A DNA stretch of 36,736 nt from Candidatus Krumholzibacteriia bacterium (GTDB lineage Bacteria > Krumholzibacteriota > Krumholzibacteriia > JAJRXK01). Below the pieces are notes generated by a model. That model was not told the origin of the DNA. It saw nothing but the letters and a program-made list of their open reading frames with translations, and searched no databases. The position numbers and the translations under genes were made by a program. The DNA is taken from assembly GCA_035268685.1 (NCBI GenBank), contig DATFKK010000034.1:1-36736 (forward strand). The letters are read 5' to 3'. How positions within the stretch are numbered: position 1 is the stretch's first letter; every line of letters begins with the position of its first letter. Positions 5,499 through 35,392 of the stretch are shown here, one piece after another.

Positions 5499-6269
5499 TC
5501 AGCGCCCCTCGCGACGCCGGAGCGGGTTCTTCGACCGGCGCCCACCCGAGTCCGGCGCCGAGGCGGGGTCGGCCCCGGCGGGAACCGGCGCCGCCTGCTG
5601 GTAGCCTTCGTAGTTGTTCTGGTACGCCGTGTACTCGGGTGCCGCTTCCTCCACGTTGCTCACCACGAGCCCCACGACCCGTGCGTCGACGCTCTCGCAG
5701 ATCTGTCGTGCCCGCTTCAGCTGCGACTCGGTCGAACGCCCCGCCATGCCCGCCAGGATCACCCCGTCGGTCACGGGCAACAGCATGGTGGCGTCGGCCA
5801 CCGGCACGATCGCCGGCGAGTCGATCAGGATCAGGTCGTAGCGATCACGCAACGAATCCACCAACGACACCAGATCGCGGGTGCGGAGGAGCAGCGCAGG
5901 ATCGGCTCCGCCCTCGGTCGGAAGCGTGACGTCGAGACTCGGCAGCTCCGTGCGAATGATCGCCTCGTCGATCGAGGCCTTTCCCTGGAGCACGCGGTCG
6001 ATCCCGGTGAACCCGCTCAGCTCGAAGTGCTGGTTCATGGCGGGAATCCGGAAGTCGAAGTCCATGGCCAGGATCCGTCGGTCCGGGTACATGCCCAGGG
6101 CGGTGGCCAGATGCGCCACGGTGGTGCTCTTGCCCTCGCCCCGCAGGGCGCTCGTGAAGAGGATGGTCTTCAGGCCCTCGCGGCGGCTCATGCTCCAGAC
6201 CCGGGCCTCGAGTTTGTTGATCTCCGAGGCGAGCAGCCAGTTGGTCTGCATGCGATCGATGGTCTTCAC
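5499..6269 (-). CDS. BY-kinase (CpsD/CapB/Wzc-C-type tyrosine autokinase)
   Basis: 256-residue cytoplasmic P-loop kinase. Walker A is 'RGEGKST', Walker A' is 'ILAMDFDFRIP' (the DxDxR form typical of BY-kinases), and Walker B is 'LILIDSPAI'. The C-terminal region carries a tyrosine cluster, 'YTAYQNNYEGYQQ', the expected autophosphorylation tail, followed by a basic end. The start is GTG at 6269 with GGAGG at 6276-6280. It overlaps the TGA of the upstream Wzz-like gene (GTGA), so the two are translationally coupled. It works with that membrane protein as a split Wzc: cycles of Tyr phosphorylation control polymer length and export. No low-molecular-weight tyrosine phosphatase or PHP phosphatase partner is visible in the window; the nearest phosphatase gene is a divergent PP2C. 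Confidence 0.92.
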   Translation of the reverse strand: MKTIDRMQTNWLLASEINKLEARVWSMSRREGLKTILFTSALRGEGKSTTVAHLATALGMYPDRRILAMDFDFRIPAMNQHFELSGFTGIDRVLQGKASIDEAIIRTELPSLDVTLPTEGGADPALLLRTRDLVSLVDSLRDRYDLILIDSPAIVPVADATMLLPVTDGVILAGMAGRSTESQLKRARQICESVDARVVGLVVSNVEEAAPEYTAYQNNYEGYQQAAPVPAGADPASAPDSGGRRSKNPLRRREGR

Positions 6270-7936
6270 GACGAGCCTCCCGAGTCGGGGTCGACCACGA
6301 CGACCGGCCGGGTGATCGCGCCGGTCTCCTCGAACACCGTGTCCTTCGACAGGAAGAACGCCACGGTCAGGACCAGCACCAGGGTGATGGCCGCGGGCAC
6401 CGCGAAGTCGCGCACCCGACGGCGCGAGCGCGCTTGTCGCATGATCAGCGGTGCGGTGCCGATGATCGGCCCGTCGAAGGCCCGCTCGAAGTCGTGGAGC
6501 GAGCGCAGGGTCGAGTCGGCCACCTCGACGGCCAGGGCGAGCAGGATTCCGAAGAAGGGACCCATGAGGATCGCCGCGAACAGGATCTTGGAGCGGTTCG
6601 GCTCCGTCGGCTTCATGGGAGTCTGCGCGGGATCGACGATCTCGATCTTGCGACCCATGTCGGTGGCGGCGACGGCCTGGCTCACGTCGCTGGCCACGAG
6701 CTGGGCCTTGAAGGACTGCAGGACGTCCTGGGCCGTCTGGACTTCGTTCTGCAGACGGGCCAGCTCCATTTCGCCGCGCGGACCGAGCTGCGCCTTGCGC
6801 CGGAACTGTGAGATCTCCTGTCCCAGGAACTCCGCCGCCGCGTCCTGCGCATCGCGATCGAGGCTGGTGAACACCAGGCGCGCGAGCGCGTCGCGGCTGG
6901 ACGACGCGGCCTCGGGGTACATGGCCTCGACGACACGCTCGAGCAACTGGAGCAGTCCACGACGGATGGTGGTGTAGCTGCCCTGCGGCGGCCACTCGGC
7001 GCTCTGCCCACCCTCGGACGACAGCAACCGATTGCGCACGTCCTCGATCAGCGCCGAACTCAACCCGCGGGCCTGGTTCCGGACCCGCGAGTCGTCGGCC
7101 ACGCGATCCTGGGCGCCGGCCAACTCGCTCCTCGACAGGGCCGTCGCGAACGGCAGCGTGCGGATCCGCGCCAGTTCGGCTTCGTCCAGGATCTTGCGGT
7201 ACAGCGCCTCGGCGGCGCTGATGTTCTGCTCGGTGACCGTACCCTGCGACAGGTCTTCCTGGATCTGCAGCTGCTTGTACTGCTCGAGTTCGCTCTCGGC
7301 CTCGGCCAGCCGCTGCTCGTAGATCTTCAGTTGCTCCTGACCGAAGTCCCGGGCCTTGTTCAGGTTCTCGAGGGCGGTCTGCGCCGACATGTCCACGTAC
7401 AGCTCACTGATCCACTGGGCGAGGAGCTGCGCGTTCCGGGCGCTGGTGTCCCGCACCCGGATGTTGTAGATGCCGACCCCACCCTGCGACAGACCGACCT
7501 TGTCGCGCAGCTCCATCACGGCGATGTGGACCGCCATGTCCTCGCGCGACAGATCGGCGGACCCGTCGAGCGCGCGCACCGCTCTTTCCCGGATCCCGGG
7601 ATCCTCGTGGATGCGCAGCAGACGGACCACACGCTCGAGGAACGGACGGCTCATGATGCGGCTTTGGAGCTCGTCGCGCCGCTGTCTTTCGGCCAGCTGC
7701 CCGGTGGCCTCGGCCCCCAGTCCGCTCATCAGATTCCGCAACTCACCGGCCAGACGCTGTTGATCGTCGACCATCAACGTGGCCTGTGAGACGTAGACGT
7801 CGGGAACGAACTGCAGCCCCACGAGCGTGCCACACAGGACCGTGATCGCGCAGAGCACCACGATCCAACGGCGGCGCCAGATCATGCGCAGGTACTGGAC
7901 GGGATCGATCTGGTGATCGACTTCGGGGTTCATCAT
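6266..7936 (-). CDS. Wzz/GumC-like polysaccharide co-polymerase
   Basis: 556-residue inner-membrane chain-length determinant. A Wzz N-terminal domain ('IDPVQYLRMIWRRRWIVVLC') leads into the first membrane segment near residues 22-42. A long periplasmic helical region follows, with coiled-coil stretches around 'EQLKIYEQRLAEAESELEQYKQ' in the middle third. The GNVR-type end, 'VDPAQTPMKPTEPNRSK', precedes a second membrane segment. After it comes 'RSLHDFERAFDGPIIGTAPLI', the usual cytoplasmic linker to the kinase, and then an extra hydrophobic stretch ('AAITLVLVLTVAFFLS'), which is not typical of every Wzz. ATG at 7936 is preferred (GAGG about 10 bases upstream); a GTG at 7972 would overlap the exporter gene. 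It partners with the coupled BY-kinase and the SLBB exporter. Confidence 0.88.
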   Translation of the reverse strand: MMNPEVDHQIDPVQYLRMIWRRRWIVVLCAITVLCGTLVGLQFVPDVYVSQATLMVDDQQRLAGELRNLMSGLGAEATGQLAERQRRDELQSRIMSRPFLERVVRLLRIHEDPGIRERAVRALDGSADLSREDMAVHIAVMELRDKVGLSQGGVGIYNIRVRDTSARNAQLLAQWISELYVDMSAQTALENLNKARDFGQEQLKIYEQRLAEAESELEQYKQLQIQEDLSQGTVTEQNISAAEALYRKILDEAELARIRTLPFATALSRSELAGAQDRVADDSRVRNQARGLSSALIEDVRNRLLSSEGGQSAEWPPQGSYTTIRRGLLQLLERVVEAMYPEAASSSRDALARLVFTSLDRDAQDAAAEFLGQEISQFRRKAQLGPRGEMELARLQNEVQTAQDVLQSFKAQLVASDVSQAVAATDMGRKIEIVDPAQTPMKPTEPNRSKILFAAILMGPFFGILLALAVEVADSTLRSLHDFERAFDGPIIGTAPLIMRQARSRRRVRDFAVPAAITLVLVLTVAFFLSKDTVFEETGAITRPVVVVDPDSGGSS

Positions 7937-7958
7937 CGGTGTGGGACCTCGACCCTCG

Positions 7959-8993
7959 CTAGTTGCTCGCACGCTGGATGAGAACGACGACCGTTGCCAC
8001 CGACAGGAACGGCGCCAGGACTTCGCTGATCCTCTGCACGAAGCCTTCCTCCGGGGGGACGGTGATCGTGTCGCCGGGACGGAGCGCCAGACCGCCGGGA
8101 GGGTTCGCCTCGTGGAGATACCCTTCGAGGTCGATCTCGTAGGCCATGGAACCCAGCGGAGTCCGCCGGAGGAGGCGGACCGACCGTAGATCGGCTCCGG
8201 GCTCGGTGCCTCCGGCCACGCCGATGGCGTCGAGGAGGTTCTCGGCCATCATCATGGAATAGTTGCCCGGCTGGCCCACCGCACCGAGGATCCGGAAGGC
8301 ATCGCCCTCGGGCAGTCGTCCGCCCAGGGCGGGCACCACGATCGTGTCCCGCGGCCGGAGTTCCGGAACGGCCCCGGGCGGCGTGTCCTCGATGCCGCGC
8401 GACAGGTCCGCCCGCAGCGTCCTGGGCTCGTCGGGCCGCCGGTCGCGGCGCACGATCTGCACGCTTCCGAGCGCGGCGTCGTCGGTGGCTCCCTGGGCCG
8501 TCAGCAACGCCTCCCAAAGGTCGGGAAGCTCCCGGAAGCCGTAGGTGCCGGGGTTACCGACCTGGCCGAGGATCGTCAGCGTCCGGCTGCCGTAGCGCGC
8601 CACCGACACGAGCACCTCTTCGATCCCGGGATCGAGCAACTGGTAGCGCTGCGTCAGTTCGTCGGTCAGTTCGGCGGGGGTTCGACCGGCGACGTCGACC
8701 GTCCCCAGCATGGGAACCTGGATCCGACCGGCGGGGTCGATGGTCACCGTCGTCGACAGTCCTTCGCGGCCGAAGACCTCGACCTGGACGACGTCCTGCG
8801 GACCGAACTCGTACTGGTCGTCCGACGGCGAGGTCGCCGCCGGACCCGACGACGCCGCAGCACCGCCCTCCGTGTCGTCCTGCGCCGCCGCGGGTGCGCT
8901 CGACAGTCCGAGCACCGCGAGAGCGGCGAACACGACGAGCAGCGAACACCCGTCGGACTGCAACCGCTCGACATGCCGTCGGAAATCGAACAT
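7959..8993 (-). CDS. Wza-like polysaccharide export protein with SLBB domains
   Basis: 344-residue exported protein starting from ATG at 8993 with GAGGA 7 bases upstream. The signal peptide ('LLVVFAALAVLGLSSAPAAA') probably ends after about residue 37. A Poly_export domain follows ('YEFGPQDVVQVEVFGREGLST..I.P.G.I..P.LG.V'), then SLBB repeats: 'LTILGQVGNPGTYGF' and 'FRILGAVGQPGNYSMMM', each followed by a 'L.P.DTI.VP' strand. The end is a hydrophobic helix, 'VLAPFLSVATVVVLIQRASN', which could insert in the outer membrane like the Wza C-terminal barrel helix. No lipobox Cys is seen, so this is probably not a lipoprotein, unlike E. coli Wza. It is the first gene of the minus-strand exopolysaccharide operon and should form the periplasm-to-surface channel. 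Confidence 0.9.
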   Translation of the reverse strand: MFDFRRHVERLQSDGCSLLVVFAALAVLGLSSAPAAAQDDTEGGAAASSGPAATSPSDDQYEFGPQDVVQVEVFGREGLSTTVTIDPAGRIQVPMLGTVDVAGRTPAELTDELTQRYQLLDPGIEEVLVSVARYGSRTLTILGQVGNPGTYGFRELPDLWEALLTAQGATDDAALGSVQIVRRDRRPDEPRTLRADLSRGIEDTPPGAVPELRPRDTIVVPALGGRLPEGDAFRILGAVGQPGNYSMMMAENLLDAIGVAGGTEPGADLRSVRLLRRTPLGSMAYEIDLEGYLHEANPPGGLALRPGDTITVPPEEGFVQRISEVLAPFLSVATVVVLIQRASN

Positions 8994-22262: not shown

Positions 22263-23633
22263 TTGCGTCAGGGAAGACCACAGGATCATCGGCCGGCTCG
22301 CCGGCGCTGGCCGGCAGCGATCGCGACGGCGGTCTCGCTGCTGTGTCCGGCCGTGGCCCACGCCTCTCCGTGGAGCCCGCATCCGCTGCACGTGGAGATC
22401 CAGCGGATCTTCCTGATCGCGGTCGTCGCGCTGATCGTGATCTACCTGTTGCGGCACTACGTGTTCACGATCAACCGGCTCTTCGGACGGCAGCGCCATC
22501 CCTATCTCGACGTGGACGCCGCCGACTGGCCGCACGTGACCGTCTGCGTCCCCGCCCACGACGAAGAAGCGGTCCTGCCGCGAATCCTCGAGGCCCTGCT
22601 GCTCGTCGACTATCCGCGCGACCGCTTCCACGTGCTGGTGATCGACGACCGTTCGACCGATCGCACGGGGGAACTGCTCGACGTGTACGCCGAGCGCCAT
22701 CCCCGTCGCATCACCGCCTTCCACCGGCGCGAGGGTCCGGCCGGCAAGGCGGCCGCCCTGAACGACGCCATGGAACTCGTCGACACCGACATCGTGCTGG
22801 TGTTCGACGCCGACTACCTGCCCGGTCGCGGCCTGATCAAACAGCTCGTCGCCCCCTTCTTCGACCCCGAGGTCGGCGCGGTCATGGGCCGCGTGGTCCC
22901 GCTCAACGCCGGCCGCAACCTGCTCACCCGCATGCTCGACCTCGAGCGTGCGGGCGGCTACCAGGTCGACCAGCAGGCCCGCATGAACCTGGGCCTGGTG
23001 CCGCAGTACGGGGGCACGGTCGGTGGCGTACGACGCTCGGCGCTCGAGGCCGTCGGCGGGTGGAACGTGAAGAGCCTGGCCGAGGACACCGACGCCACCT
23101 TCCGCCTGCTGCTCGGCGGCTGGAAGACGGTCTACCAGAACCGCTCGGAGTGCTACGAAGAGGTCCCCGAGACCTGGCCGCAGCGGATCGGGCAGGTCAT
23201 CCGCTGGGCGCGCGGTCACAACCAGGCCATGTTCCGCTACACCGGTCCGCTGTTGCGCAGCCGTCGCATCGGATGGCGCAGCAAGCTCGACGGCGTGCTG
23301 CTGCTCGGGGTGTACGTCCTGTCGCCGCTGCTGGTGCTGGCCTGGGCGGCAGCGCTGTCGCTGTGGCACCTGGGCGTGAACGAATCCGGGGTGGTGATCG
23401 TGCTCGCGGTGGCCAGTTACGCCACGCTCGGCAACTTCGCGACCTTCTTCGAGGTCGCCGCCGCCACGCATCTCGACCGCACCCGCCGGCGCGCCCGGCT
23501 GCTGCCGCTGCTCGCCACCGGCTTCCTGGTCACGGCCCTGTCGGTCACCGGAGGTGCGTTCGTGCAGCTGGCCGCCCTGAGTCCGCACCGCAAGAACTTC
23601 TGGCACAAGACGGCGAGGAACGGCGACTCATGA
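22263..23633 (+). CDS. Processive GT2 polysaccharide synthase with N-terminal signal-like segment
   Basis: 456-residue membrane glycosyltransferase. Catalytic motifs are 'VIDDRSTD' (D128/D129), 'FDADYLP' (DxD, 182-184), 'SLAEDTDAT' (D275 region) and 'QVIRWARGHNQ' (QxxRW, 311-315), the D,D,D,QxxRW set of processive synthases such as BcsA, PgaC and NodC. A membrane helix precedes the catalytic domain (about 48-68) and three or four follow (about 343-437). No ATG or GTG fits. TTG at 22263 gives an N-terminus that looks like a signal peptide ('RRRWPAAIATAVSLLCPAVAHA', basic then hydrophobic, AHA-S). A GTG at about codon 31 would drop it. It should polymerise a sugar and extrude it through the inner membrane. 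The stop overlaps the next ATG. Confidence 0.88.
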   Translation: MRQGRPQDHRPARRRWPAAIATAVSLLCPAVAHASPWSPHPLHVEIQRIFLIAVVALIVIYLLRHYVFTINRLFGRQRHPYLDVDAADWPHVTVCVPAHDEEAVLPRILEALLLVDYPRDRFHVLVIDDRSTDRTGELLDVYAERHPRRITAFHRREGPAGKAAALNDAMELVDTDIVLVFDADYLPGRGLIKQLVAPFFDPEVGAVMGRVVPLNAGRNLLTRMLDLERAGGYQVDQQARMNLGLVPQYGGTVGGVRRSALEAVGGWNVKSLAEDTDATFRLLLGGWKTVYQNRSECYEEVPETWPQRIGQVIRWARGHNQAMFRYTGPLLRSRRIGWRSKLDGVLLLGVYVLSPLLVLAWAAALSLWHLGVNESGVVIVLAVASYATLGNFATFFEVAAATHLDRTRRRARLLPLLATGFLVTALSVTGGAFVQLAALSPHRKNFWHKTARNGDS

Positions 23634-24709
23634 GCGTGACCGTCGTCACCGTGCTGTTCTTCGCGCTCGTCGTGGGTCTGCTGCTGGTACCCCTGGTACC
23701 GGCGCTGCGCGAGATCCGCAGCCGCTTCGACGCCGAGGCCCTGCCCATCGCGGCCGACGGAAGGGTCTCGTCCACCTACTTCGCCGAGCGCTTCCGCGCC
23801 GTCCTGGCCGATCGGCTGGCCGGTCCGGTCGAAGAGGTCCGGGCGAACGGTCAGCTCCTGCGGGGCCGGATCGACGGGGGCGAGTCCTTCGTGGTGTTGC
23901 CCGCCGCGCAGACGCGGGTCCCGGTCGACCACGACTCGCCGGACGAGACCATGGTCCTGGCCGTGGGCGATCTCGAGGTCGAGCCCGAGCGTGCGGTGGG
24001 GCGCGAGGTCTTCGCCGAGGGCGACGTCCGGACCGGAGACCACGCCGTGCTGCGCGCCACGCTGGCCGACGGCGACGTCACACTGGGTGAGGGAACCACC
24101 AGCCTGCGCTGGATCCACGCCGACGGCGAGGTGCGGGTCGGGCCGCGCGCCCTCCTGCACGGGCGCGTGTCGGCCGGTCGCAGGATCCGTGTGGCCGAGG
24201 GCGTCCGGTTCGAGCGGCTGCACGCTCCCCGGGTCGAATTCGGCAACCCGATCGACCCCGAGCCCCGCCCGCCCGAGGACCTGCGACCGTCGGGCCCCGA
24301 GGACCTCGACCCGCGCACCGAGACCGCGGCCGGACGCACCATCGTCCACGGCGACGTGACCCTGCCGGCCGGCACGCGGTGGACGGGCGACCTGGTCGTG
24401 AGGGGATCACTGCGCGCCGGACCGGAAACGCGGATCGAGGGATCGGTGAAGGCACGCGGCGTGCACCTGGAGTCCTCGACCGTCGTCACCGGGTCGGTGG
24501 TCAGCACGAAGGGCGCTTCGATCGGGCCCGAGGTCCGGATCGACGGCCTGTTGATCACCGAGGGTCACGTGCGACTGGGCCACGGCAGCGTCGTCGGCCG
24601 CGAACCCGACACGGCGACCCTGCGGGCCGAGACCATCGACGTCGAGGCCGGCTGCGTGGTCCACGGTACGGTCTGGGTGACCGAAGACGGAGGATGGACC
24701 GAATCGTGA
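23630..24709 (+). CDS. Membrane-anchored bactofilin-like polymer-forming protein
   Basis: 359 residues from ATG at 23630, overlapping the TGA of the synthase (ATGA). One hydrophobic helix at about 3-25 ('TVVTVLFFALVVGLLLVPLVP') anchors it. After a mixed domain come two blocks of short repeated strands with regularly placed Gly and Val: about 100-190 ('VLRATLADGDVTLGEGTTS') and about 215-350 ('DVTLPAGTRWTGDLVVRGSL', 'RIEGSVKARGVHLESSTVV', 'RIDGLLITEGHVRLGHGS'). This is the right-handed beta-helix pattern of bactofilins, which form filaments without nucleotide. Typical bactofilins are shorter (120-180 residues) and often unanchored, so this one is long and double. It may scaffold the synthase next door. 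The assignment rests on the repeat pattern alone. Confidence 0.72.
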   Translation: MSVTVVTVLFFALVVGLLLVPLVPALREIRSRFDAEALPIAADGRVSSTYFAERFRAVLADRLAGPVEEVRANGQLLRGRIDGGESFVVLPAAQTRVPVDHDSPDETMVLAVGDLEVEPERAVGREVFAEGDVRTGDHAVLRATLADGDVTLGEGTTSLRWIHADGEVRVGPRALLHGRVSAGRRIRVAEGVRFERLHAPRVEFGNPIDPEPRPPEDLRPSGPEDLDPRTETAAGRTIVHGDVTLPAGTRWTGDLVVRGSLRAGPETRIEGSVKARGVHLESSTVVTGSVVSTKGASIGPEVRIDGLLITEGHVRLGHGSVVGREPDTATLRAETIDVEAGCVVHGTVWVTEDGGWTES

Positions 24710-26283
24710 ACTCGAGGACCGAGTCGAGCCATCGTGGCTACCGGGGCGGACTGATTCCGGTCCACCGCGCACTCAACCACCTGGAGCTGCGCAAGCGCGA
24801 CGGCGCGCTCGGCGTGCTGTTCGTGATCGCGCTCGTGGTGGGCTGGGCCGTGGCGTGGCCCTTCGTGGTCCGGGCGTGGGCGGCGATCGGCCGCTTCGCC
24901 TTCGAGGTGCTCGGGGTCCCCGCCCAGGTCCCGGTGATCACCCGCGCCTTCGCGTTCGGCGTCGAGCTGACCGTACCGCGCTTCGACGTGGCGGCCGCGC
25001 TTCCCACGACCGCACAGTGGAACGTGGGACTGGGCGTGGTCGCGGTGGTCCTGCTGGTGTCGATCTTCCTGCCGACCCGCTCGCTGCCACTCGTCTACCT
25101 GCTCCGGCTCCTCGCGGCGGTGCAGGTGTCGTCGCAGATCGTCTTCGCGCTGTTCGCCCCGGCGTTCCCCTACGACGTGGGCGGAATGACCGAGACGCTC
25201 TTGCTGGCGAACCTGTTCGTGATCGGACTGGTGCCCGTGATCATGGGATTCGCCTACAACCCGCTGGCCTACGGGTGGTCGCAACGACTGGCCGCGGCGC
25301 TGCTACCCATGGCGCACCTCGCGGTCACGGTCCCTCTTCTGTACGTGGCGCACGCCTGGATCCTGCACCACGGATCGCTGCTGTGGATGCCGCTGCTGTT
25401 CTGGGCCTTCGGCCTGGTGTTGAGCGTGTTCTCGATCGTGGCGTTCTACGGGTGGGCCGTGAGCTGGCCCCACGCGGTCCGGGCACGGCCGCGGCGACGT
25501 CTACGGCAGCCCCGCGTCCTGGGCACCGTGCTGCTGACCTTGGTCGTCGTTCCCGCGACCGCCGCGGCCGACGACACGGTCGAGTCGATCCAGCTCGGGC
25601 TGGACGTCGGGCGCTACACCGAGGACCTCGGCGGGGCCGAGAGCGGCTTCGTGGCCTACACCCGCGAGCGCTCGGGCGTGGATCGCTGGCGCTTCGACCT
25701 GGGTTTCGCCTCGCGCTTCGACGACACCGGGCTCGGTGTCGGAGCGTCGTACGGCCGTCACCTCGGCGCGAACACGCTGGTGTCGGCGGGGCTCAGCACG
25801 GGCGGCGGCGACGTCGTCCAACCCGACCTGCGCTTCGACATGGGACTGCGGCGCACCGCGCTCCTCGACGGGCGCCTGCTCGTCGACCTGGGCTACACGC
25901 ACATCGAGAACAAGGGCGACAACAGCAGCGACGGGGTCGGCGCGGGCCTGCTCTACTCGCTCGGCGGCGGCTGGTCGGTGGGTGCCGACGGGCGTGTCGA
26001 CATCGGCCAGCCGGGGGACACCCAGGGCCACACGGTCGCCGTGTCGCTCCTCTACGGGATCTACCGCAAGCTCTACCTGTCGGCCCGGGCCGAGACGGGC
26101 CGCGTGGCCTACCTGCTGGTCGGTCCCTCCGACGCCCTCGTCGAGTTCGACAGCCGCGGTCTCCGGCTCGGCGCCACGTGGTACGTGCAGGAGGACCGCG
26201 GGGTGGGCGTGGAATTCTCGGTGCTCGACACCGAGGTCTACGACCTCACCAACGTCGGGCTGCGCGCCTTCCGCGAATGGTAG
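24706..26283 (+). CDS. Fusion of multipass inner-membrane domain and YaiO-like outer-membrane barrel
   Basis: 525 residues in one uninterrupted frame. The start is taken as GTG at 24706, overlapping the previous TGA, with GGAGG 12 bases upstream; ATG 24694 touches that GGAGG and is unlikely. Residues about 34-250 hold six or seven hydrophobic helices ('LGVLFVIALVVGWAVAWPFV', 'GVVAVVLLVSIFLP', 'LLFWAFGLVLSVFSIVAFYG'). At 260-288 comes a textbook signal peptide inside the chain: 'RARPRRRLRQPR', then 'VLGTVLLTLVVVPATAAA' and 'DD'. From 289 to the end is an outer-membrane barrel with YaiO-like strands ('VESIQLGLDVGRYTE', 'LDRWRFDLGFASRF'-like, 'GATWYVQEDRGVGVEF'), ending in Trp. It lies beside a GT2 synthase gene as yaiO lies beside yaiP. 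Cleavage would free the barrel to the outer membrane. No exosortase Cys/Arg/His triad is seen. Confidence 0.8.
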   Translation: MNSRTESSHRGYRGGLIPVHRALNHLELRKRDGALGVLFVIALVVGWAVAWPFVVRAWAAIGRFAFEVLGVPAQVPVITRAFAFGVELTVPRFDVAAALPTTAQWNVGLGVVAVVLLVSIFLPTRSLPLVYLLRLLAAVQVSSQIVFALFAPAFPYDVGGMTETLLLANLFVIGLVPVIMGFAYNPLAYGWSQRLAAALLPMAHLAVTVPLLYVAHAWILHHGSLLWMPLLFWAFGLVLSVFSIVAFYGWAVSWPHAVRARPRRRLRQPRVLGTVLLTLVVVPATAAADDTVESIQLGLDVGRYTEDLGGAESGFVAYTRERSGVDRWRFDLGFASRFDDTGLGVGASYGRHLGANTLVSAGLSTGGGDVVQPDLRFDMGLRRTALLDGRLLVDLGYTHIENKGDNSSDGVGAGLLYSLGGGWSVGADGRVDIGQPGDTQGHTVAVSLLYGIYRKLYLSARAETGRVAYLLVGPSDALVEFDSRGLRLGATWYVQEDRGVGVEFSVLDTEVYDLTNVGLRAFREW

Positions 26284-28016
26284 ACGGGCCGTCGCGCCGC
26301 ACCGTCACGGCGCTGACGGTCGCGGTGGCGTGGCCGGCCTTCCTGCCACCGCTCACGCTCCTGCTGTCGTGGCTGCACGTCCCGATCCCACCGGTGGCGG
26401 CCGGCGGAATCGTGGTCTCGGGACTCGCCATGGCCGTGCTGCTGGCCAGGGGCGCGGCCCGGGGAACCGACCCCTCCGCTCGTCGCGTCGATCCCCACGT
26501 CGCCGGGGCCGTCCTGCTCGTGGGCGCCGTCGCGGTCCACCACCTGGTCCTGACCTGGCAGCGTCCGGTGCTCGACTGGGACGGCCTGTACTACCACCTG
26601 CCGGCCGTCCACGGCTGGCTGCGCGCCGACCGCGTGGTCTGGATCGAGGGCACCGACGACGTACCCTTCGTCAACGGCTACCCCATGGCGCTCGAGACCA
26701 TGGGACTCCTGCTGGTCCGATTGCTCGACCACGGCCGGTGGCTCGACGCCCTGAATCTGATCCTGTGGCCGGCCGGTGCGCTCGGCCTGGCGGCGACCGC
26801 TCGCGCCTGGGGCGCCCGCCGGCCCTGGCCGGCCGTCGCGGCCGTGTCCTTCCTTGCCGTCCCGGCGTGGCACCTGGGCAGTACGACCGCCTACGTCGAC
26901 GTCGGGTTGGCGGCCGCCACCTGTGCCTTCGTCGCGGTGACGGTGTGGCGCCTGCGAGGGATCGACCACGCGGGGGTCGCGCTGCTCTGGGGAGCGGCGG
27001 CGGGCCTGACGGCGAGCGTGAAGGGCACCGGCCTGCTGATCGCGGCCCTCGGGGTGGTCCTGCTCGTCGTGGATCTCACGCGCCGGGCCCCGGATCGGCG
27101 ACCGGCCGCCCTGCGGGCCCTGACGCTGGGTGTGGCGGTCCTGGTGCTGGTCGGTGGACTCTGGCCGGCACGTGCCCTCGTGCACGCGGGAAACCCCGTC
27201 CATCCCGTCGAGCTGCGACTGGGAGCGAAGGTCCTGGCCCCGGGGACCGACGCCCACGCGGCCGCCGCCCTGTCCACGCCCGCCGATCTCGCCGACGTTC
27301 CGGCCCCGCTGCATCCGCTGGCCATCTGGGCCCGTCCGTTCCGAGCGGTCGAGGTCTACGACCAGGCCGAGGGACTGGGCCCGGTCTGGACGCTGGGGGC
27401 CCTGCCGGCCCTCCTCGTGCTCGTTCTCACCCGGCGGCGCCTCGAGGTGCTGGGGCCGGTCGCCCTGGGTCTGGCCCTGCTGCTGGCACAACCCGCGCCG
27501 TGGTGGTCGCGTCTCACCCTGTGGATGCTCGCGCTCGGTCTGCCCGCCCTCGCCGCGGTGGCGTCGCGATCCCGGGGAAGGATCTCCGGCCGACTCGTCC
27601 CGGCGGCCGCCGTCGTGGTCCTGCTGGCCGGCGCGATCACGAGTGTCGGAGCGGTGCGGGCCGACCTCGCGCGAGGGCGGACCCCGGACGGCTACCTCGA
27701 CTCGATCGAGTTCTACTTCCCGGAACTGGCTGCGCACCCGCGTCTCGACGAAGCCCTCGCAGCCGACGCGATCGGACGCAGTCGTTGGAGTCGGCAGGGT
27801 TCGCTGCTCGGCGGTGCGCTCGCACAGCCGGTCGGCGCACGGGCGGTGGTCCGGGTCGACGATCCGCGCGATGCACCGTCCGACCTCCGCTGGATCCTGT
27901 GGGACGTCACCGCGGCGGGCGATCCGCCGCCGCCCGGAGTCAGCGCGTGGCGACCCGTCGGACCGCCACGGAACGGCTTCCTGTTGCTCGTCCGGATCGC
28001 GGCCCCGAGGCGCTGA
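26277..28016 (+). CDS. GT-C-type glycosyltransferase (GT39/RgtA-like membrane protein)
   Basis: 579-residue polytopic protein from ATG at 26277, inside the end of the previous gene (its stop is 26281-26283). After two N-terminal helices, 'PVLDWDGLYYHLPAVHGWLR' (about 97-116) is the first-loop Asp motif of GT-C enzymes (D100/D102), followed by 'YPMALETMGLLLVRLL' and many Ala/Leu/Val helices. A C-terminal periplasmic region has 'YLDSIEFYFPELAAHPRL'. Such enzymes take a sugar from a polyprenyl-phosphate donor and add it to lipid-linked glycan or protein in the periplasm. No strong ribosome site is seen, which fits translational coupling. It is the last of four overlapping genes. The donor and acceptor are unknown. 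Confidence 0.8.
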   Translation: MVDGPSRRTVTALTVAVAWPAFLPPLTLLLSWLHVPIPPVAAGGIVVSGLAMAVLLARGAARGTDPSARRVDPHVAGAVLLVGAVAVHHLVLTWQRPVLDWDGLYYHLPAVHGWLRADRVVWIEGTDDVPFVNGYPMALETMGLLLVRLLDHGRWLDALNLILWPAGALGLAATARAWGARRPWPAVAAVSFLAVPAWHLGSTTAYVDVGLAAATCAFVAVTVWRLRGIDHAGVALLWGAAAGLTASVKGTGLLIAALGVVLLVVDLTRRAPDRRPAALRALTLGVAVLVLVGGLWPARALVHAGNPVHPVELRLGAKVLAPGTDAHAAAALSTPADLADVPAPLHPLAIWARPFRAVEVYDQAEGLGPVWTLGALPALLVLVLTRRRLEVLGPVALGLALLLAQPAPWWSRLTLWMLALGLPALAAVASRSRGRISGRLVPAAAVVVLLAGAITSVGAVRADLARGRTPDGYLDSIEFYFPELAAHPRLDEALAADAIGRSRWSRQGSLLGGALAQPVGARAVVRVDDPRDAPSDLRWILWDVTAAGDPPPPGVSAWRPVGPPRNGFLLLVRIAAPRR

Positions 28017-28142: not shown

Positions 28143-29693
28143 ATGAGCGAGGAGACGATCCGCGACCTTCACCGACGCCGCGCCGAGTCCTACGCGGGCG
28201 GGGGCGAGAAGCGCATCGAGAAGCAGCACGCGGCCGGCAAACTCACCGCGCGCGAGCGCCTGAGCCTGCTCTTCGACCCCGACACCTTCCAGGAGATGAA
28301 CCTCCACCTGCGGCACCGCGCCACGAACTTCGGGCTCGACCGCAAGGAGTTCCCCGGCGAAGGCGTGGTCACCGGTTTCGGATCGGTCGACGACCGCCCG
28401 GTCTACGTGGCCAGCCAGGACTTCACCGTGGGCGGCGGCAGCGTGGGCGAGGGCACCGCGCACAAGATCGTCGAGGTCATGGACGCCGCGCTGCAGACGG
28501 GCGACCCCTTCCTGTTCATCAACGACGGCGGCGGCGCGCGGATCCAGGAGGGCGTCGACGCCCTCAGCGGCTACGGCGACATCTTCTACCGCAACGTGCT
28601 GCTCTCGGGCGTGGTCCCGCAGATCAGCCTGATCATGGGACCCTGCGCCGGCGGCGCGGCCTACTCGCCCGCCCTGACCGACTTCGTGATCATGGTCCGG
28701 GGCGAATCGCAGATGTTCATCACCGGCCCGAAGGTGATCAAGGAGGTCACCGGCGAGGACATCGACGCGGAGTCGCTCGGCGGCGCCGACGCCCACGGAA
28801 CACATTCGGGAGTGGCCCACTTCGTCGTGGACAGCGACGAAGAGGGAATCGCGCTGGCCAAGCGTCTGCTCACCTTCCTGCCCAGCAACAACACCGAGGA
28901 CCCGCCTTTCGATCCGTCGTCGTGGGACGGCGAGGTCGTCAGCGACCCCGAGCTGAACGAGATCGTCCCGACCGATCCGCGGCAGGCCTACGACATCCGC
29001 GACGTGATCCGGCGCGTGATCGACAACGCCGACTTCGTCGAGATCCTCGAGCAGTTCGCGCCGAACATCGTCACCGGTCTGGCGCGGATCGAGGGCCGGG
29101 TGGTGGGCGTGATCGGCAACCAGCCGAAGGTCCGCGCCGGCGTGCTGGACATCGACGCCTCGTCGAAGGGCGCGCGCTTCGTGCGCTTCTGCAACGCCTT
29201 CAACATTCCGCTGGTCACCTTCGTCGACGTGCCCGGCTTCCTTCCGGGGGTGTCGCAGGAACAGGGTGGAATCATCAAACACGGCAGCAAGATGCTCTTC
29301 GCCTATGCCTCGGCCACCTGCCCCAAGCTGACCGTGGTGCTGCGCAAGGCCTACGGCGGGGCCTACCTGGCCATGTGCGCCAAGAGCATGGGTGCCGACC
29401 GGATCTGCGCCTGGCCCGCCGCCGAGATCGCGGTCATGGGCGCCGAGGGTGCGGTGAACATCCTGTACCGACGCGAGATCAACGAGGCCGAGGACCCGGT
29501 GGCCGAACGGGCGAAGCGGATCGCCGAGTACCGCGAGCTGTTCGCGAATCCCTACGTGGCGGCCGGGCGTGGACTCGTGGACGACGTGATCGAGCCGGCC
29601 GACACGCGCCTGTACCTGGCCACCTCGCTGCAGGTCCTGCGCAGCAAACGCGAGCTGCGGCCGCAGAAGAAGCACGGCCTCATCCAGCTGTAG
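28143..29693 (+). CDS. mmdA: Methylmalonyl-CoA decarboxylase/acyl-CoA carboxylase carboxyltransferase subunit
   Basis: 516 residues, typical for MmdA/PccB. It starts 'MSEETIRDLHRRRAE', with AAGGA upstream. It has two crotonase-like halves: the N-terminal half contains 'LTARERLSLLFDPDTFQEM' and 'GGGARIQEGVDALSGYGDIF'. The C-terminal half contains 'VDVPGFLPGVSQEQGGIIKHG', 'KAYGGAYLAMCAKSMGADR' and 'WPAAEIAVMGAEGAVNILYR'. The subunit moves a carboxyl group between (S)-methylmalonyl-CoA and biotin. Alone it could be propionyl-CoA carboxylase beta, but the genes that follow (OadG-like, biotin carrier, MmdB) and the absence of a biotin carboxylase gene point to the sodium-pumping decarboxylase. Glutaconyl-CoA is a possible alternative substrate. 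Confidence 0.9.
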   Translation: MSEETIRDLHRRRAESYAGGGEKRIEKQHAAGKLTARERLSLLFDPDTFQEMNLHLRHRATNFGLDRKEFPGEGVVTGFGSVDDRPVYVASQDFTVGGGSVGEGTAHKIVEVMDAALQTGDPFLFINDGGGARIQEGVDALSGYGDIFYRNVLLSGVVPQISLIMGPCAGGAAYSPALTDFVIMVRGESQMFITGPKVIKEVTGEDIDAESLGGADAHGTHSGVAHFVVDSDEEGIALAKRLLTFLPSNNTEDPPFDPSSWDGEVVSDPELNEIVPTDPRQAYDIRDVIRRVIDNADFVEILEQFAPNIVTGLARIEGRVVGVIGNQPKVRAGVLDIDASSKGARFVRFCNAFNIPLVTFVDVPGFLPGVSQEQGGIIKHGSKMLFAYASATCPKLTVVLRKAYGGAYLAMCAKSMGADRICAWPAAEIAVMGAEGAVNILYRREINEAEDPVAERAKRIAEYRELFANPYVAAGRGLVDDVIEPADTRLYLATSLQVLRSKRELRPQKKHGLIQL

Positions 29694-29704
29694 ATCGGAC
29701 GCCC

Positions 29705-30079
29705 ATGGAGCACACCGCGATCACCAGCACTTCGGACGCCGTGACCCTGGCCGTGGTCGGCTTCCTGATCGTGTTCATGGTGCTGGCCCTCACGGCGACC
29801 CTGGTCTGGCTGGTGGGCCGTTTCGACCTCCGGTGGCAACGCCACGAGCAGGTCACCGAGCAGCAGCGGACCGACCGGGAGCCCACGATCGACGCGACCA
29901 CGGCGGTGATCATCGCGGCCGCCGTCGCCACGTACCTCGGGGGCCGGGCACGCATCCGCTCGGTCCGGCGTCTGATCCCCGCCGCGGGCGAGCCCAGCAC
30001 CTGGTCGGCCCAGGGTCGCGCCACCCTGCTCGGTTCGCACGCGATCTCCGGCCGCCACGGTTCCTCGCGTCACCCATGA
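29705..30079 (+). CDS. OadG-like small membrane subunit of the Na+ decarboxylase
   Basis: 124 residues. One N-terminal membrane helix, 'AVTLAVVGFLIVFMVLALTATLVWLV', matches the OadG/MmdD start. A polar linker follows, then a second conserved patch ('AAVATYLGGRARIRSVRRL' and 'PSTWSAQGRATLL') that occurs in OadG-type subunits of this lineage. The subunit joins the carboxyltransferase to the membrane beta subunit and helps assembly. It begins 11 bases after mmdA. The ribosome site is weak, so coupling is likely. Confidence 0.83.
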   Translation: MEHTAITSTSDAVTLAVVGFLIVFMVLALTATLVWLVGRFDLRWQRHEQVTEQQRTDREPTIDATTAVIIAAAVATYLGGRARIRSVRRLIPAAGEPSTWSAQGRATLLGSHAISGRHGSSRHP

Positions 30080-30164
30080 ACCCTCCGGACCATCCGATTC
30101 CGACGGCCACTCCGCGCGCACACGCCGCGACCCGGCACACCGGCCGCAACCAGGAGACCAGTCG

Positions 30165-30578
30165 ATGAAGCTGAAGATCACCGTCCACGGAGTCGCCTAC
30201 GAGGTCGAGGTCGAAGTCCTCGACGCCGGAGACGGATTCGCCGCTCCCTCGGCCCTGCCTCCCGTCGCTCCGCGCCCGGGAACGAGCCCCACTCCGGCGC
30301 CGTCGAATCCCGCGCCGGCGGCGCCGAAGCCGGCCGAGGCCACCCCCGCCCCGTCGGGCGACAGCAAGGGAACGGTGAACTCGCCGATCGCCGGAACGGT
30401 CGTCGAGGTCCGCTGCTCGGTCGGGGATCAGGTCGACAAGGACCAGGTGCTGATCGTGGTCGACGCCATGAAGATGCACACGTCGATCGCCTCGCCGCTG
30501 GCGGGGAAGGTGGCCGCGGTGAAGGTCGGCGTGGGCGATGCGGTGCGCGAGAACCAGCCGCTCGTCGAGATCGGGTAG
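30165..30578 (+). CDS. mmdC: Biotin carrier protein of the Na+ decarboxylase
   Basis: 137 residues. A short N-terminal strand region ('MKLKITVHGVAYEVEVEV') is followed by a Pro/Ala-rich flexible linker (about 27-66) and a biotinyl domain (68-137). The biotin lysine is K103 in 'DAMKMHT'; most carriers read 'EAMKM', so Asp at position 100 is a mild change. The mirrored halves 'VNSPIAGTVVEVRCSVGDQV' and 'IASPLAGKVAAVKVGVGDAV' are typical. It shuttles carboxybiotin between mmdA and mmdB products. The ATG has AGGAG 9 bases upstream and lies 85 bases after the OadG-like gene. Confidence 0.93.
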   Translation: MKLKITVHGVAYEVEVEVLDAGDGFAAPSALPPVAPRPGTSPTPAPSNPAPAAPKPAEATPAPSGDSKGTVNSPIAGTVVEVRCSVGDQVDKDQVLIVVDAMKMHTSIASPLAGKVAAVKVGVGDAVRENQPLVEIG

Positions 30579-30590
30579 AGCGGGCCCGCC

Positions 30591-31718
30591 ATGGACATCC
30601 TCCTGGACTTCCTGCAGGCCGGCGCGATCGGCAACATGACGTGGGGCAACTTCGTCATGCTCATCGTCGGTTGCGTGTTCATCTATCTGGCGATCACCAA
30701 GGACTACGAACCCCTGCTGCTCGTCCCGATCGGATTCGGGATCCTCGTCGGCAACATTCCCATGTCCGAGGGCATGGGGATCGGGGTCTACGAACCGGGC
30801 AGCGTGCTGTCGATCCTGTACCTGGGCGTGAGCCAGGGGTGGTACCCGCCGCTGATCTTCCTGGGCATCGGCGCGATGACCGATTTCTCCTCGCTGATCG
30901 GCAATCCCCGCCTGGTCCTGCTCGGGGCCGCGGCGCAGGCCGGGATCTACATCACCTTCCTCGGCGCCATCCTCATGGGTTTCGACGCCGAGCACGCCGC
31001 GGCGATCGGGATCATCGGCGGGGCCGACGGACCCACCGCGATCTTCCTGTCGTCGAAGATGGCCCCGGACTACCTGGGCGCCATCGCGATCGCGGCCTAC
31101 TCGTACATGGCCCTGGTGCCGGTGATCCAACCGCCGATCGTGAAGCTGCTCACCAGCCGGCGGGAACGGCTGATCCGCATGTCGCCGAGCCGGCCGGTGA
31201 GCAAGCGCACGCGGATCCTCTTCCCGATCGTGGGCTTCCTGCTCACCACCATGCTCGCGCCGGGGGCGATTCCCCTGCTCGGCATGCTCTTCTTCGGCAA
31301 CCTGCTCAAGGAGAGCGGCGTGACCGAGCGGTTGGCCAAGACGGCACGAACGGCCTTCGTCGACGTGATCACCATTCTTCTGGGCCTGACCGTGGGAACC
31401 TCGACCGACGCGACGCGGTTCCTCACGCCGCAGTCGATCCAGATCTTCATGCTGGGTGCGGCGAGCTTCGCGATCGCCACCGCGGCGGGCGTGATGTTCG
31501 CCAAGGGACTGAACCTGGTCGTGCGCGACAAGATCAACCCGATCATCGGGGCGGCGGGCGTGTCGGCGGTTCCGGACTCGGCGCGTGTGTGTCAGATGAT
31601 GGGGGCCAAGGAGGACCCGCAGAACTTCCTGATCATGCACGCCATGGCGCCGAACGTGTCGGGGGTGATCGGTTCGGCCGTGGCCGCCGGCGTGTTCCTG
31701 GCGACCTTCGCTCGCTGA
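30591..31718 (+). CDS. mmdB: Na+-translocating decarboxylase beta subunit
   Basis: 375 residues of the OadB/MmdB/GcdB family, with about nine membrane segments. Conserved landmarks include 'DFSSLIGNPRLVLLGAAAQ', 'IGIIGGADGPTAIF' (its Asp146 should correspond to the Na+-coupling Asp of OadB), 'AYSYMALVPVIQPP', 'GTSTDATRFL' and the C-terminal 'FLIMHAMAPNVSGVIGSAVA'. It decarboxylates carboxybiotin and drives Na+ out across the inner membrane, storing decarboxylation energy as a sodium gradient. It starts 12 bases after mmdC. It ends 12 bases from the convergent KaiC-like gene, with no clear terminator between them. Confidence 0.94.
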   Translation: MDILLDFLQAGAIGNMTWGNFVMLIVGCVFIYLAITKDYEPLLLVPIGFGILVGNIPMSEGMGIGVYEPGSVLSILYLGVSQGWYPPLIFLGIGAMTDFSSLIGNPRLVLLGAAAQAGIYITFLGAILMGFDAEHAAAIGIIGGADGPTAIFLSSKMAPDYLGAIAIAAYSYMALVPVIQPPIVKLLTSRRERLIRMSPSRPVSKRTRILFPIVGFLLTTMLAPGAIPLLGMLFFGNLLKESGVTERLAKTARTAFVDVITILLGLTVGTSTDATRFLTPQSIQIFMLGAASFAIATAAGVMFAKGLNLVVRDKINPIIGAAGVSAVPDSARVCQMMGAKEDPQNFLIMHAMAPNVSGVIGSAVAAGVFLATFAR

Positions 31719-31730
31719 GAAGCCGGTCGA

Positions 31731-33419
31731 TCAGTCGCGGTCGTGGCTGCCGACGCGGTCGGCCAGCTTGAAGTACTCGGTCACGCCGAAGTGCTCCCGC
31801 ATGACCACGTCGGCCACCACGAGTTCGTTGCGGGCCGACTCCAGCCGCTCGATGACCGGCGCGTCCTCGGGGAGCTGCCCGGGGAGCTGCTCGAGGACTT
31901 CGCGGAAGGTCGCCAGGATCGTCTCGATGCGCGGCAGGACTTCCTGCGCCGGGTCGTCGTAACCCGGACGCGAGGATCCCGTCAGCACCCCCGACCGCGA
32001 GGTCGCACGATCGGCCACGTACATCCCACGCTCGTCGATCCGGAGTTCCCGCAGGTCGGAGGCGTGGTTGCTGCCGCTGTGCTTGCGCACGCTCACGAAG
32101 CGCTCGAGACGCCCGTGGCCTTCGGCCACCGAGAACTGGATCTGCGCGTCGAGGAGTTCGCCGAGATCCTGATCGTGGACGGTCGCGTCGCCGCGCATGT
32201 GCGACAGGCGCTGGATCAACAGCGCGGTGGCCCCCACCGACCGCAGCATCTCCACGAGCACGACCGTGTCGTCGTTCACCCCACGGGCGTCCTCGCACAG
32301 GTCGGCGAAGTCGTTCAGGGAGTCGAGGGCGAAGGCGTCGGGCGAGTGGGCCGCCACGGCCTCGAAGAGCCGATTGAGGAAGATCTCCGGGGTCATGCCG
32401 ACCCAGTCGGCGCGCACGAGCTGGAGCTGTCCGGAGTCGACGGATCCCGACCAGTCCAGACCCAGCGAGGCGGCATCGGCGACGACCTGGCCGGGACTGC
32501 GGTGGAAGCTCACGAAGAGTGCCGGCTTCCCCCGGCGCATCTGCTCGTCGAGGAAGTGGTAGGTGAGCACCGTCTTGCCCGAGGCCTGGTAGCCGCTCAC
32601 GCCGTTGACGCTGCCTTCCCACAGCCCGCCGTTCAGCATCGTGTCCAGGCCCGGCACCCCGGTCGAAACACGATCGCGGCGCGTGTCGCGGGTCTCGATC
32701 AGACCGAAGCGCACGTCCTGCGGACGCAGTCGCGGGTACACCACGAGACCCTCGGCCGACAGCGTGAAGGGATGACGGCCCGAGGTGTGTCCCTGTCCGC
32801 GCGTCTTGCGGATCTCGACCGAACGCAGGTTCTCGCCACCGCGAGCCCGGCGCCCGTTGAGGACGCGTATGGACGCGTCGACCAGGTACTCCTCGAAGGC
32901 GATGTCGCGCTCGTCGTTGCGTTCGAGCTCCTTGACCAGGATCGAGTTCACGCCCTGCAGTTTGAAGTAGCTGAGCACTCCGGCCAGGACCTCACGGAGC
33001 TCGGTCTCGCTGTCGGACACGCGCTTGAAGTGCGTGACGCTGTCGATGAGGATCCGCCGGACCCCCATCTGCTTCACCAGATCGTCGATCAGATCGTTGC
33101 GACCGTTGAAGGAGTCGAGCACGCGCTGGGGCGGCGTCCATACGATCCGCAGCTTTCCGGTGGCCTCGAGTTCCTCGAGATCGACGCCCTGGGTCCACGC
33201 CTCCTCGTAGATCTGCCGCGGGAACTCCTCGAAGCTGATGATCAGCCCCGGCTCGTCGTGCTGACGCACGCCTTCGGCGATCATGCGCACCCCGAAGGTC
33301 GTCTTGCCGCTCCCTGGCGGCCCTTCGATCAACAGGCTGTTCCCGCGCACGATACCACCCTCGAGCAGTCGATCGAGCCCGGGGATCCCCGTGGGCATGC
33401 GTCCGAGTCCGTTGCTCAC
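31731..33419 (-). CDS. Double-domain KaiC-like RecA-fold ATPase
   Basis: 562 residues. Domain 1 (about 8-235) has Walker A 'GPPGSGKT' (33-40), the paired catalytic Glu in 'SFEEFP' (64-65), and Walker B 'ILIDSVTH' (123-130). Domain 2 (about 250-475) has Walker A 'GYQASGKT' (276-283) and 'FALDSLND', but where catalytic Glu would sit it reads 'SFHRSP' (306-307). A helical tail of about 80 residues follows ('VLPRIETILATFREVLEQLP'). KaiC relatives form hexamers and act as ATP-driven timers or regulators. No KaiA or KaiB gene is present. The start is GTG at 33419, overlapping the TGA of the PilB-type gene, with GGAG 8 bases upstream. The coupling implies joint function, perhaps control of pili or motility. 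Confidence 0.88.
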   Translation of the reverse strand: MSNGLGRMPTGIPGLDRLLEGGIVRGNSLLIEGPPGSGKTTFGVRMIAEGVRQHDEPGLIISFEEFPRQIYEEAWTQGVDLEELEATGKLRIVWTPPQRVLDSFNGRNDLIDDLVKQMGVRRILIDSVTHFKRVSDSETELREVLAGVLSYFKLQGVNSILVKELERNDERDIAFEEYLVDASIRVLNGRRARGGENLRSVEIRKTRGQGHTSGRHPFTLSAEGLVVYPRLRPQDVRFGLIETRDTRRDRVSTGVPGLDTMLNGGLWEGSVNGVSGYQASGKTVLTYHFLDEQMRRGKPALFVSFHRSPGQVVADAASLGLDWSGSVDSGQLQLVRADWVGMTPEIFLNRLFEAVAAHSPDAFALDSLNDFADLCEDARGVNDDTVVLVEMLRSVGATALLIQRLSHMRGDATVHDQDLGELLDAQIQFSVAEGHGRLERFVSVRKHSGSNHASDLRELRIDERGMYVADRATSRSGVLTGSSRPGYDDPAQEVLPRIETILATFREVLEQLPGQLPEDAPVIERLESARNELVVADVVMREHFGVTEYFKLADRVGSHDRD

Positions 33420-35392
33420 GATCCCAGCTCCGTTCCGCAGTACTGGCACTCCGCCCACTCGGGGCGAACCGGAGCCAGACAGCTCTTGCAGAACACGCGG
33501 TGCCACTCCTGCTCGAGCGGCTGACCGCAGTGGGCACAGGCTTCCCAGCTCGACTCGACGGCCCGCGAGCAGCTCGGGCACTCCTGCTTGAGCCGCTCGT
33601 GGCAGAAGGGACACACGGTGAAGTCGAGGTCGACCACGTGCTGACAGTTCGTGCAGAGCTGCTCGCGCGGCTCGTCCGACAAGACCACGCGCTGGATCTC
33701 GGCGACCGTGGTCACGCCCTCGAGCACGGCGTGCCGGGCGAAGTCGGCCATGGACAGCATGCCGGCCTTCTTGGCGGCGTAACGGATCGCGTGCGGCGAC
33801 GCTCCGCTCTGGATCAGCCCGTGGATCTGATCGTCCACGCGGAAGTACTCGAAGATGCCGCGCCGGCCGCGGTAGCCGGTCCCGGAGCAGCGCGAGCAGC
33901 CACGCCCCCGACGGAGCGGCCGCGGATCGGGATAACCGAGCAGCACCCGCTCGGTCTCGTTCATCGGGTACTCCTCGACACACTCCTCGCAGATCTCGCG
34001 CACCAGACGCTGCCCCAGCACGCCCCTGAGGGTCGCCGAGATCAGGTAGGGCTCCGCGCCCATCTCGAGCAGGCGGGTGATCGCCTGGCAGGCGTCGTTC
34101 GTGTGGATCGTGCTGAGGACCTTGTGCCCGGTCAGAGCGGCACGGCACGCGACGTCGACCGTGCGCACGTCGCGGATCTCGCCGACGAGGATCACGTCGG
34201 GATCCTGCCGGAGCAGCGCGCGCAGGCCCTCGGAGAAGCCGAAGCCGATCTCTTCGTTCACCTGCATCTGCGAGATGCCGGGCAGGGAGTACTCGATCGG
34301 GTCCTCGAGGGTCGAGATGTTCAGGGCTCCGCCCTCGAGCGAGCCGAGCGTGGCGTACAGCGTGGTCGTCTTGCCGCTTCCGGTGGGTCCGGTGACCAGG
34401 TAGAAGCCCTGCGGGTTGTGCAGGACCTCCGAGAATCCTTCGCGGACCGCCGGTGGCAGGTGGAGTTCGTCGAAGTCGAGCAGACGCTGGTCGCGCTGCA
34501 GGACGCGGGCGACGACCTTCTCCCCCCACTGCGAGGGCATGACGCTCACCCGCAGGTCGAGCTCCTTGCCCGCGGCGGCGAGGTGACAACGACCGTCCTG
34601 GGGCAGCCGATGCTCCGCGATGTCCATGTCGGCCATGATCTTCAGACGCGAGACCATGGCCGGAACCACCGAGCGCGGCAGGCGAACCACGTTCTGCAGC
34701 ACGCCGTCGAGCCGCAGGCGGCACCACATGCCGTCTTCCTGGGGTTGCAGATGGACGTCGGTCGCCCCGCTGCGCGCGGCCTCCTCGAGGACCGCGGTCA
34801 CCAGTTCCGCGGGTTCTTTCGTCTCGGACCACCGGCGCGCTCCCTCGAATCCGGTCGAGACCCGGAGTTCGCGGCGCTGCATCACGTCACGGTCGGGTGT
34901 ACCAGCAGCCGTCGGTGTCGCGGGTTCCGGCTTCGATCCCGGCGCCAGTTGCAGTCTCGGGTAGTGCTCCTCGATCGCGTCGAGGATCTCGAAGGCGGGC
35001 GCGACGCGGGCGACGATCCGGTGACGACTGGCCGCCTGGAGCTTCTGCACGACGGTCGAATCGTCGGGCCACTCCATCGCGACGCGCAGTTCGTCCCCAT
35101 CGACGGTCAACGGCAGGGCCCGGCAACGGCTCGCCACGTCGCGGGGAAGGACCTGCAGCGCCTCCAGATCCGGAATGGCTTCCTCCAGGTCGATCGACGG
35201 GCAGAAGGTGTGGTTCTCGAGCAACTGCAGGAGCTGCGGTCGCGAGAAGACGCCTTCGTCGAGCAGGACGCGCTCGAGGCCCTGGTCCCGCTCCCGGGCC
35301 AGACCCGCGAGTTCCTCCACCCGGGACAGCGGCAGGATCTGGTGCCGTCCGAGGAGAGTTCCCAGTCGTGTGTCGAGCACGCCGGTGACCAT
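33416..35392 (-). CDS. PilB/GspE-type assembly ATPase with three extra C-terminal zinc ribbons
   Basis: 658 residues. An N-terminal MshEN/GspE-N-like domain (about 5-150) precedes the ATPase. Walker A is 'GPTGSGKT' (335-342), the Asp box is 'ISTLEDPIEY', Walker B is 'DVILVGEIRD' (399-408), and the His box is 'STIHTNDA'. The normal Cys4 metal site is present ('CEEC' 468-471, 'CSRC' 499-502). After residue 575, where family members end, come three CxxC...CxxC ribbons (Cys at 580/583/594/597, 605/608/619/622, 635/638/649/652). The enzyme powers type IV pilus or type II secretion assembly at the inner membrane; which one cannot be told. The start is ATG 35392; the ribosome site is weak. It is coupled to the KaiC-like gene. 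Confidence 0.9.
   Translation of the reverse strand: MVTGVLDTRLGTLLGRHQILPLSRVEELAGLARERDQGLERVLLDEGVFSRPQLLQLLENHTFCPSIDLEEAIPDLEALQVLPRDVASRCRALPLTVDGDELRVAMEWPDDSTVVQKLQAASRHRIVARVAPAFEILDAIEEHYPRLQLAPGSKPEPATPTAAGTPDRDVMQRRELRVSTGFEGARRWSETKEPAELVTAVLEEAARSGATDVHLQPQEDGMWCRLRLDGVLQNVVRLPRSVVPAMVSRLKIMADMDIAEHRLPQDGRCHLAAAGKELDLRVSVMPSQWGEKVVARVLQRDQRLLDFDELHLPPAVREGFSEVLHNPQGFYLVTGPTGSGKTTTLYATLGSLEGGALNISTLEDPIEYSLPGISQMQVNEEIGFGFSEGLRALLRQDPDVILVGEIRDVRTVDVACRAALTGHKVLSTIHTNDACQAITRLLEMGAEPYLISATLRGVLGQRLVREICEECVEEYPMNETERVLLGYPDPRPLRRGRGCSRCSGTGYRGRRGIFEYFRVDDQIHGLIQSGASPHAIRYAAKKAGMLSMADFARHAVLEGVTTVAEIQRVVLSDEPREQLCTNCQHVVDLDFTVCPFCHERLKQECPSCSRAVESSWEACAHCGQPLEQEWHRVFCKSCLAPVRPEWAECQYCGTELGS

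Follow-up and report, generated by a model that had tools for sequence, protein, structure and literature searches.

A single reading frame from a Krumholzibacteriota genome predicted to supply both an inner-membrane protein and a YaiO-type outer-membrane barrel

Results

The fused gene lies in a putative glycan locus

The DNA analysed here, referred to as the window, is a 36,736-nucleotide stretch from a Candidatus Krumholzibacteriia bacterium. It contains a gene (24706–26283, forward strand) whose 525-residue product, encoded in a single frame, is predicted to join a six-helix inner-membrane domain, an internal signal peptide and a YaiO-type outer-membrane barrel. Further upstream on the same strand is a gene for a PgaC/cellulose-synthase-like processive glycosyltransferase of family GT2 (22290–23633, start provisional). 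It carries the QxxRW-type motif of processive GT2 enzymes, in the form QVIRW, and scores 118 of the 422 bits set as the equivalog cut-off for PgaC and 92 of the 699 bits set for CelA. The GT2 seems to open with a signal-peptide-like segment, RRRWPAAIATAVSLLCPAVAHASPW (22290–22420, forward strand), ahead of its first membrane helix. Between the two genes is one for a bactofilin-like protein (23630–24709, forward strand), a right-handed β-solenoid with an N-terminal membrane anchor, whose match to Pfam Bactofilin (E = 1.8e-5) is just below the cut-off.

The gene that follows (26277–28016, forward strand) overlaps the stop of the fused gene with its start and encodes a polytopic membrane protein with a WDGLYYHLP motif; it is GT-C-like by appearance only and matched no Pfam family. 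Directly after these glycan genes, a carboxyltransferase, a biotin carrier and an OAD-beta gene stand in series as a sodium-pumping decarboxylase cluster (28143–31718, forward strand). Elsewhere in the window there is a Wzz/GNVR-type chain-length determinant (6266–7972, reverse strand), suggesting a second polysaccharide pathway, and a PilB/GspE-type secretion ATPase (33416–35392, reverse strand; T2SSE, E = 3e-118) with an MshEN domain and extra C-terminal double zinc ribbons (residues 580–656).

The fused gene starts at GTG 24706, which overlaps the TGA of the bactofilin-like gene (GTGA) and is preceded by a strong Shine–Dalgarno match (−9.5 kcal/mol). The start of a homologue from the same genus overlaps its upstream gene in the same manner. 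From 24706 to 26283 there are 525 codons without a stop, and the GC content at third codon positions (GC3) is 0.83–1.00 throughout, the junction between the domains included; because GC3 is uniform across the junction, there appears to be no frame change there. The first-pass annotation of this DNA had described an open frame of this length, and its coordinates, together with the cleavage site that it predicted, proved correct.

A six-helix domain with both ends predicted in the cytoplasm

Residues 1–255 (24706–25470, forward strand) form a six-transmembrane domain, the N- and C-termini of which the positive-inside rule places in the cytoplasm. Hydropathy and the AlphaFold model place the membrane helices at residues 30–69, 102–121, 124–153, 158–184, 191–223 and 225–252. 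Six or seven helices had been suggested from the letters alone; six stands, and the seven-helix reading was dropped because the AlphaFold model shows six. Modelled alone, the domain reached a pLDDT of 91.9 and a pTM of 0.85. No Pfam or NCBIfam family matched residues 1–255, or the split homologues described below. Against the PDB there was likewise no sequence match, and the best fold match (E = 0.056) is meaningless.

Over 45 homologues, the mean number of lysines and arginines was 6.8 in the N-terminal tail, 1.6 and 1.8 in inside loops 2 and 4, and 0.3 and 0.2 in the short outside loops 3 and 5. This charge bias argues that both ends of the domain are inside, helix 6 ending in the cytoplasm, and an internal signal that follows helix 6 would therefore be oriented as signal peptidase I needs.

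A complete YaiO-family barrel behind a predicted internal signal peptide

Residues 289–525 (25570–26283, forward strand) are predicted to form a 14-strand outer-membrane barrel of the YaiO family. They match NCBIfam TIGR04390 over practically the whole profile (residues 294–525, profile positions 2–230 of 230; E = 1.4e-15; 57.9 bits, cut-off 32), and Pfam YaiO (PF19413) at residues 294–469 (E = 1.2e-7; 32.4 bits, cut-off 23.9), so that family membership is supported by a curated cut-off over the whole domain. In the AlphaFold model the barrel is closed, with 14 strands between residues 291 and 524 and pLDDT mostly above 90, and the chain ends in an aromatic residue, FREW. The YaiO-like barrel ending in Trp that the sequence had first suggested is thus borne out, and the high-confidence model places a barrel after residue 289. 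In a Foldseek search the barrel grouped with OmpG and other porins. OmpG is a monomeric porin with the same 14-strand fold (TMt 0.71), although its sequence identity to the window barrel is only ∼10% and it is no family relative by sequence. The full-length model, built from an alignment of 50 related sequences, has a mean pLDDT of 89.6 and a pTM of 0.58; the latter is what two domains without a fixed mutual relation would be expected to give.

Between the two domains lies a predicted internal signal peptide (residues 254–288; 25465–25569, forward strand), a call that rests on simple rules applied to residues 254–300. Its n-region (254–271) contains the basic stretch that follows helix 6, PHAVRARPRRRLRQPR. 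The hydrophobic core, LGTVLLTLVVV, has 11 residues (272–282) and a mean hydropathy of 2.75, and is followed by the c-region in PATAAA|DD, with a predicted signal peptidase I cut after A288. AlphaFold gives residues 259–288 a pLDDT below 50. By these rules, n-, h- and c-regions follow an even number of helices and the n-region is cytoplasmic; a polytopic protein and an exported protein share one frame, as in an FbcH-type precursor (see Discussion). Among 42 barrels encoded separately, the N-terminal signal has a mean core hydropathy of 2.48, and an AxA-type site is present in 37. The internal signal thus resembles the N-terminal signal peptides of separate barrels and corresponds to them in position.

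In most relatives the two halves are neighbouring genes

A scan of GTDB species genomes yielded 52 loci that carry the six-helix family; they come from Krumholzibacteriota, Eisenbacteria, Latescibacterota, Fibrobacterota, Gemmatimonadota, Acidobacteriota, Burkholderiales and others. Both halves were present in 43 of these, as two neighbouring genes in 41 and fused in two; the window is the third fusion. One fused relative (G001, locus L027) comes from a Krumholzibacteriota metagenome-assembled genome (MAG) of the same genus as the window and is 41% identical; the other (G029, locus L023) belongs to another family and is 34% identical. All the fused cases are from uncultured metagenome genomes or drafts. 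Within the phylum of the window, 11 of 80 genomes contain the six-helix gene: it is fused to the barrel in three and adjacent to it in six, and in two the barrel is on another contig. None of the 22 positives among 298 Gemmatimonadota genomes was fused. The one long frame in that phylum (G172, 583 residues) was dropped as a candidate fusion, since its barrel sits in a different frame. A search of plasmids for relatives returned one match, unannotated, from Cupriavidus.

The comparison with relatives bears on whether the fusion is real. The assembly is a draft in 202 contigs, and in most relatives there is a stop close to residue 255, a feature that the first-pass annotation had named as grounds for rejecting the fusion. 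That stop was found; it reflects the ancestral two-gene state and does not point to an error here. Three genomes carry the fusion, which is retained between two of them at 41% identity, and GC3 is uniform; together, the conservation of the fusion and the uniform GC3 rule out an assembly error or frameshift. In addition, the barrel is complete to its C-terminal FREW, confidently predicted and the sole YaiO barrel in the genome. We give almost no credence to assembly error or gene decay as the origin of the fusion.

Trees of the two halves agree on the history of the fusion. In the six-helix tree, the window and L027 are sisters and L023 clusters with two split genes, L024 and L026, so that at least two changes are needed; a single fused clade is rejected (AU test, p = 0.0017). 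The barrel tree likewise requires two changes and rejects a single fused clade (AU test, p = 0.037). A fusion inherited once is therefore ruled out by the trees of both halves, which indicate that fusion arose twice, out of two neighbouring genes. Two loci are placed at odds with their titles, one titled Kuenenia (L053, a MAG) falling inside Gemmatimonadota and one titled Gemmatimonadales (L028) inside Krumholzibacteriota; these are likely mislabelled or mixed bins, or cases of gene transfer.

The order of the two genes is also informative. When the six-helix gene comes first, three of 12 cases are fused (11 loci and the window); when the barrel comes first, none of 32 loci is. Fusions are thus confined to the six-helix-first order, which is the one that cutting behind an internal signal would demand, and nearly all split barrels have their own signal peptide. 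Clade history, as well as topology, could explain the lack of fusions among the 32 barrel-first loci.

A GT2 homologous to that of the window lies nearby in 44 of the 52 loci and a bactofilin-like gene in 43, and several of the loci without one or the other are short or at a contig end. A homologue of the polytopic protein downstream of the fused gene occurs in 10 of the 52. From the families involved and the gene neighbourhood, we infer that the GT2, the bactofilin-like protein, the six-helix protein and the YaiO barrel constitute a putative module for exopolysaccharide synthesis and export. Individual loci carry other genes. In Cupriavidus (L061:4728–5741), an extra gene for ∼337 residues, weakly alpha-toroid-like (squalene cyclase, TED), separates the bactofilin-like gene from the barrel. 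At a locus of a Gemmatimonas MAG (L074:3764–5080), a UDP-GlcNAc 2-epimerase gene is directly upstream of the barrel, a hint that the polymer may contain a ManNAc-type sugar.

The fused chain is probably cut by signal peptidase

The core of the internal signal and barrel strand 1, which starts at residue 291, are separated by about 10 residues, or 30–35 Å at most. This gap is far too short for an uncut chain to sit in both membranes, and so the barrel must be freed by cutting or made from an internal start. The first-pass annotation had likewise offered cleavage in vivo or an internal start as the two options; this either-or stands, but the two do not remain equal, as the evidence favours cutting.

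We consider it likely that the gene encodes a two-protein precursor, the chain being cut by signal peptidase I to yield subunits for both membranes; the cleavage, the final location of the products and their part in glycan export are inferred. In such a scheme, one chain would be translated and inserted via Sec/YidC, and the six-helix domain would settle with its N- and C-terminal ends in the cytoplasm. The internal signal would then enter N-in, with its basic end inside, and signal peptidase I would cut after about A288. The six-helix protein would remain in the inner membrane, where the signal would persist as its C-terminal remnant helix, and a 237-residue barrel precursor would be released, to be placed in the outer membrane by chaperones and BAM. 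Both halves would be subunits of one putative exopolysaccharide machine, and the fusion, by replacing two neighbouring genes, would provide them in equal amounts. Genes for both signal peptidase I (E = 1.5e-56) and BamA (E = 1.4e-149) are present in the genome. Cutting would need only features predicted in all three fusions, namely a signal peptide and its right orientation.

Alternatively, translation of the barrel might begin at an internal start codon close to the junction, giving two products by overlapping translation rather than by cutting. In the window, GTG 25459 would give a signal peptide of 37 residues, and the same-genus homologue (G001) has a GTG with a fair Shine–Dalgarno match (L004, reverse-complement position 2281; −7.6 kcal/mol). 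However, the match of GTG 25459 is weak and interrupted (−5.3 kcal/mol, compared with −9.5 kcal/mol for the true start), and this codon falls within a conserved [YF]xWxxSW motif and is therefore needed as a codon anyway. The third fusion (G029) has no start codon between helix 6 and the hydrophobic core. Moreover, the full-length fusion would be produced too, and would still require cutting. Because the fusions share no conserved internal start, and any start that could serve is weak or lacking, we regard this route as unlikely and favour cutting.

A chain that stays whole, either bridging both membranes or tethering the barrel to the inner membrane, would agree with the single reading frame, and its equal stoichiometry would suit a trans-envelope complex. 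The periplasm spans 150 Å or more, though, and neither the ∼10 residues between signal core and strand 1 in the window nor even the ∼30-residue linker of G029 is long enough to cross it; the separate relatives, in addition, have ordinary signal peptides. We judge an intact chain to be highly improbable.

Discussion

Our analysis suggests that signal peptidase processing may turn the product of one gene into proteins for two membranes. The closest parallel is FbcH of Bradyrhizobium japonicum, the cytochrome b–c1 precursor, in which cytochrome b and c1 are encoded by one gene and signal peptidase cuts the chain. There too, an internal signal peptide links a polytopic inner-membrane protein to the protein encoded after it, and the products are two subunits of one machine. 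The second product of FbcH, however, is anchored in the inner membrane and faces the periplasm, whereas that of the window is a predicted outer-membrane barrel. A literature search, with most subscription journals outside its reach, found no precursor fusing inner- and outer-membrane proteins, and no account of this module.

Other parts of the locus recall known glycan systems. In the yaiS–yaiP–yaiX–yaiO cluster of E. coli K-12, a GT2 gene (yaiP) is also near a YaiO barrel gene. There, though, yaiO is separate, no six-helix gene is annotated, and the other places are held by yaiX, a broken acyltransferase gene, and the deacetylase gene yaiS. Similarly, the Pga system for PNAG and the Bcs system for cellulose combine a processive QxxRW-type GT2 with an outer-membrane barrel in one operon. 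The GT2 of the window nevertheless falls far short of the cut-offs for PgaC and cellulose synthase, there was no sign of a TPR-barrel exporter, and the six-helix and bactofilin-like parts are extra. On balance, we lean towards an undescribed envelope glycan module, present in Krumholzibacteriota, Eisenbacteria, Latescibacterota, Gemmatimonadota, Acidobacteriota and Burkholderiales, whose inner- and outer-membrane subunits were fused twice into a precursor split by signal peptidase.

Gene fusion is strong evidence that two proteins work together, and the fusion therefore connects the YaiO pore with the unnamed six-helix family. If our interpretation is correct, this would be, as far as is known, the first bacterial polypeptide to supply an integral inner-membrane protein and an outer-membrane barrel by way of an internal signal peptide, and it would have arisen twice over. 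It would also mean that signal peptidase and the barrel-assembly route tolerate a barrel behind six membrane helices. Finally, the locus would offer a way into an uncharacterised glycan system, which occurs in cultured Duganella and Cupriavidus too.
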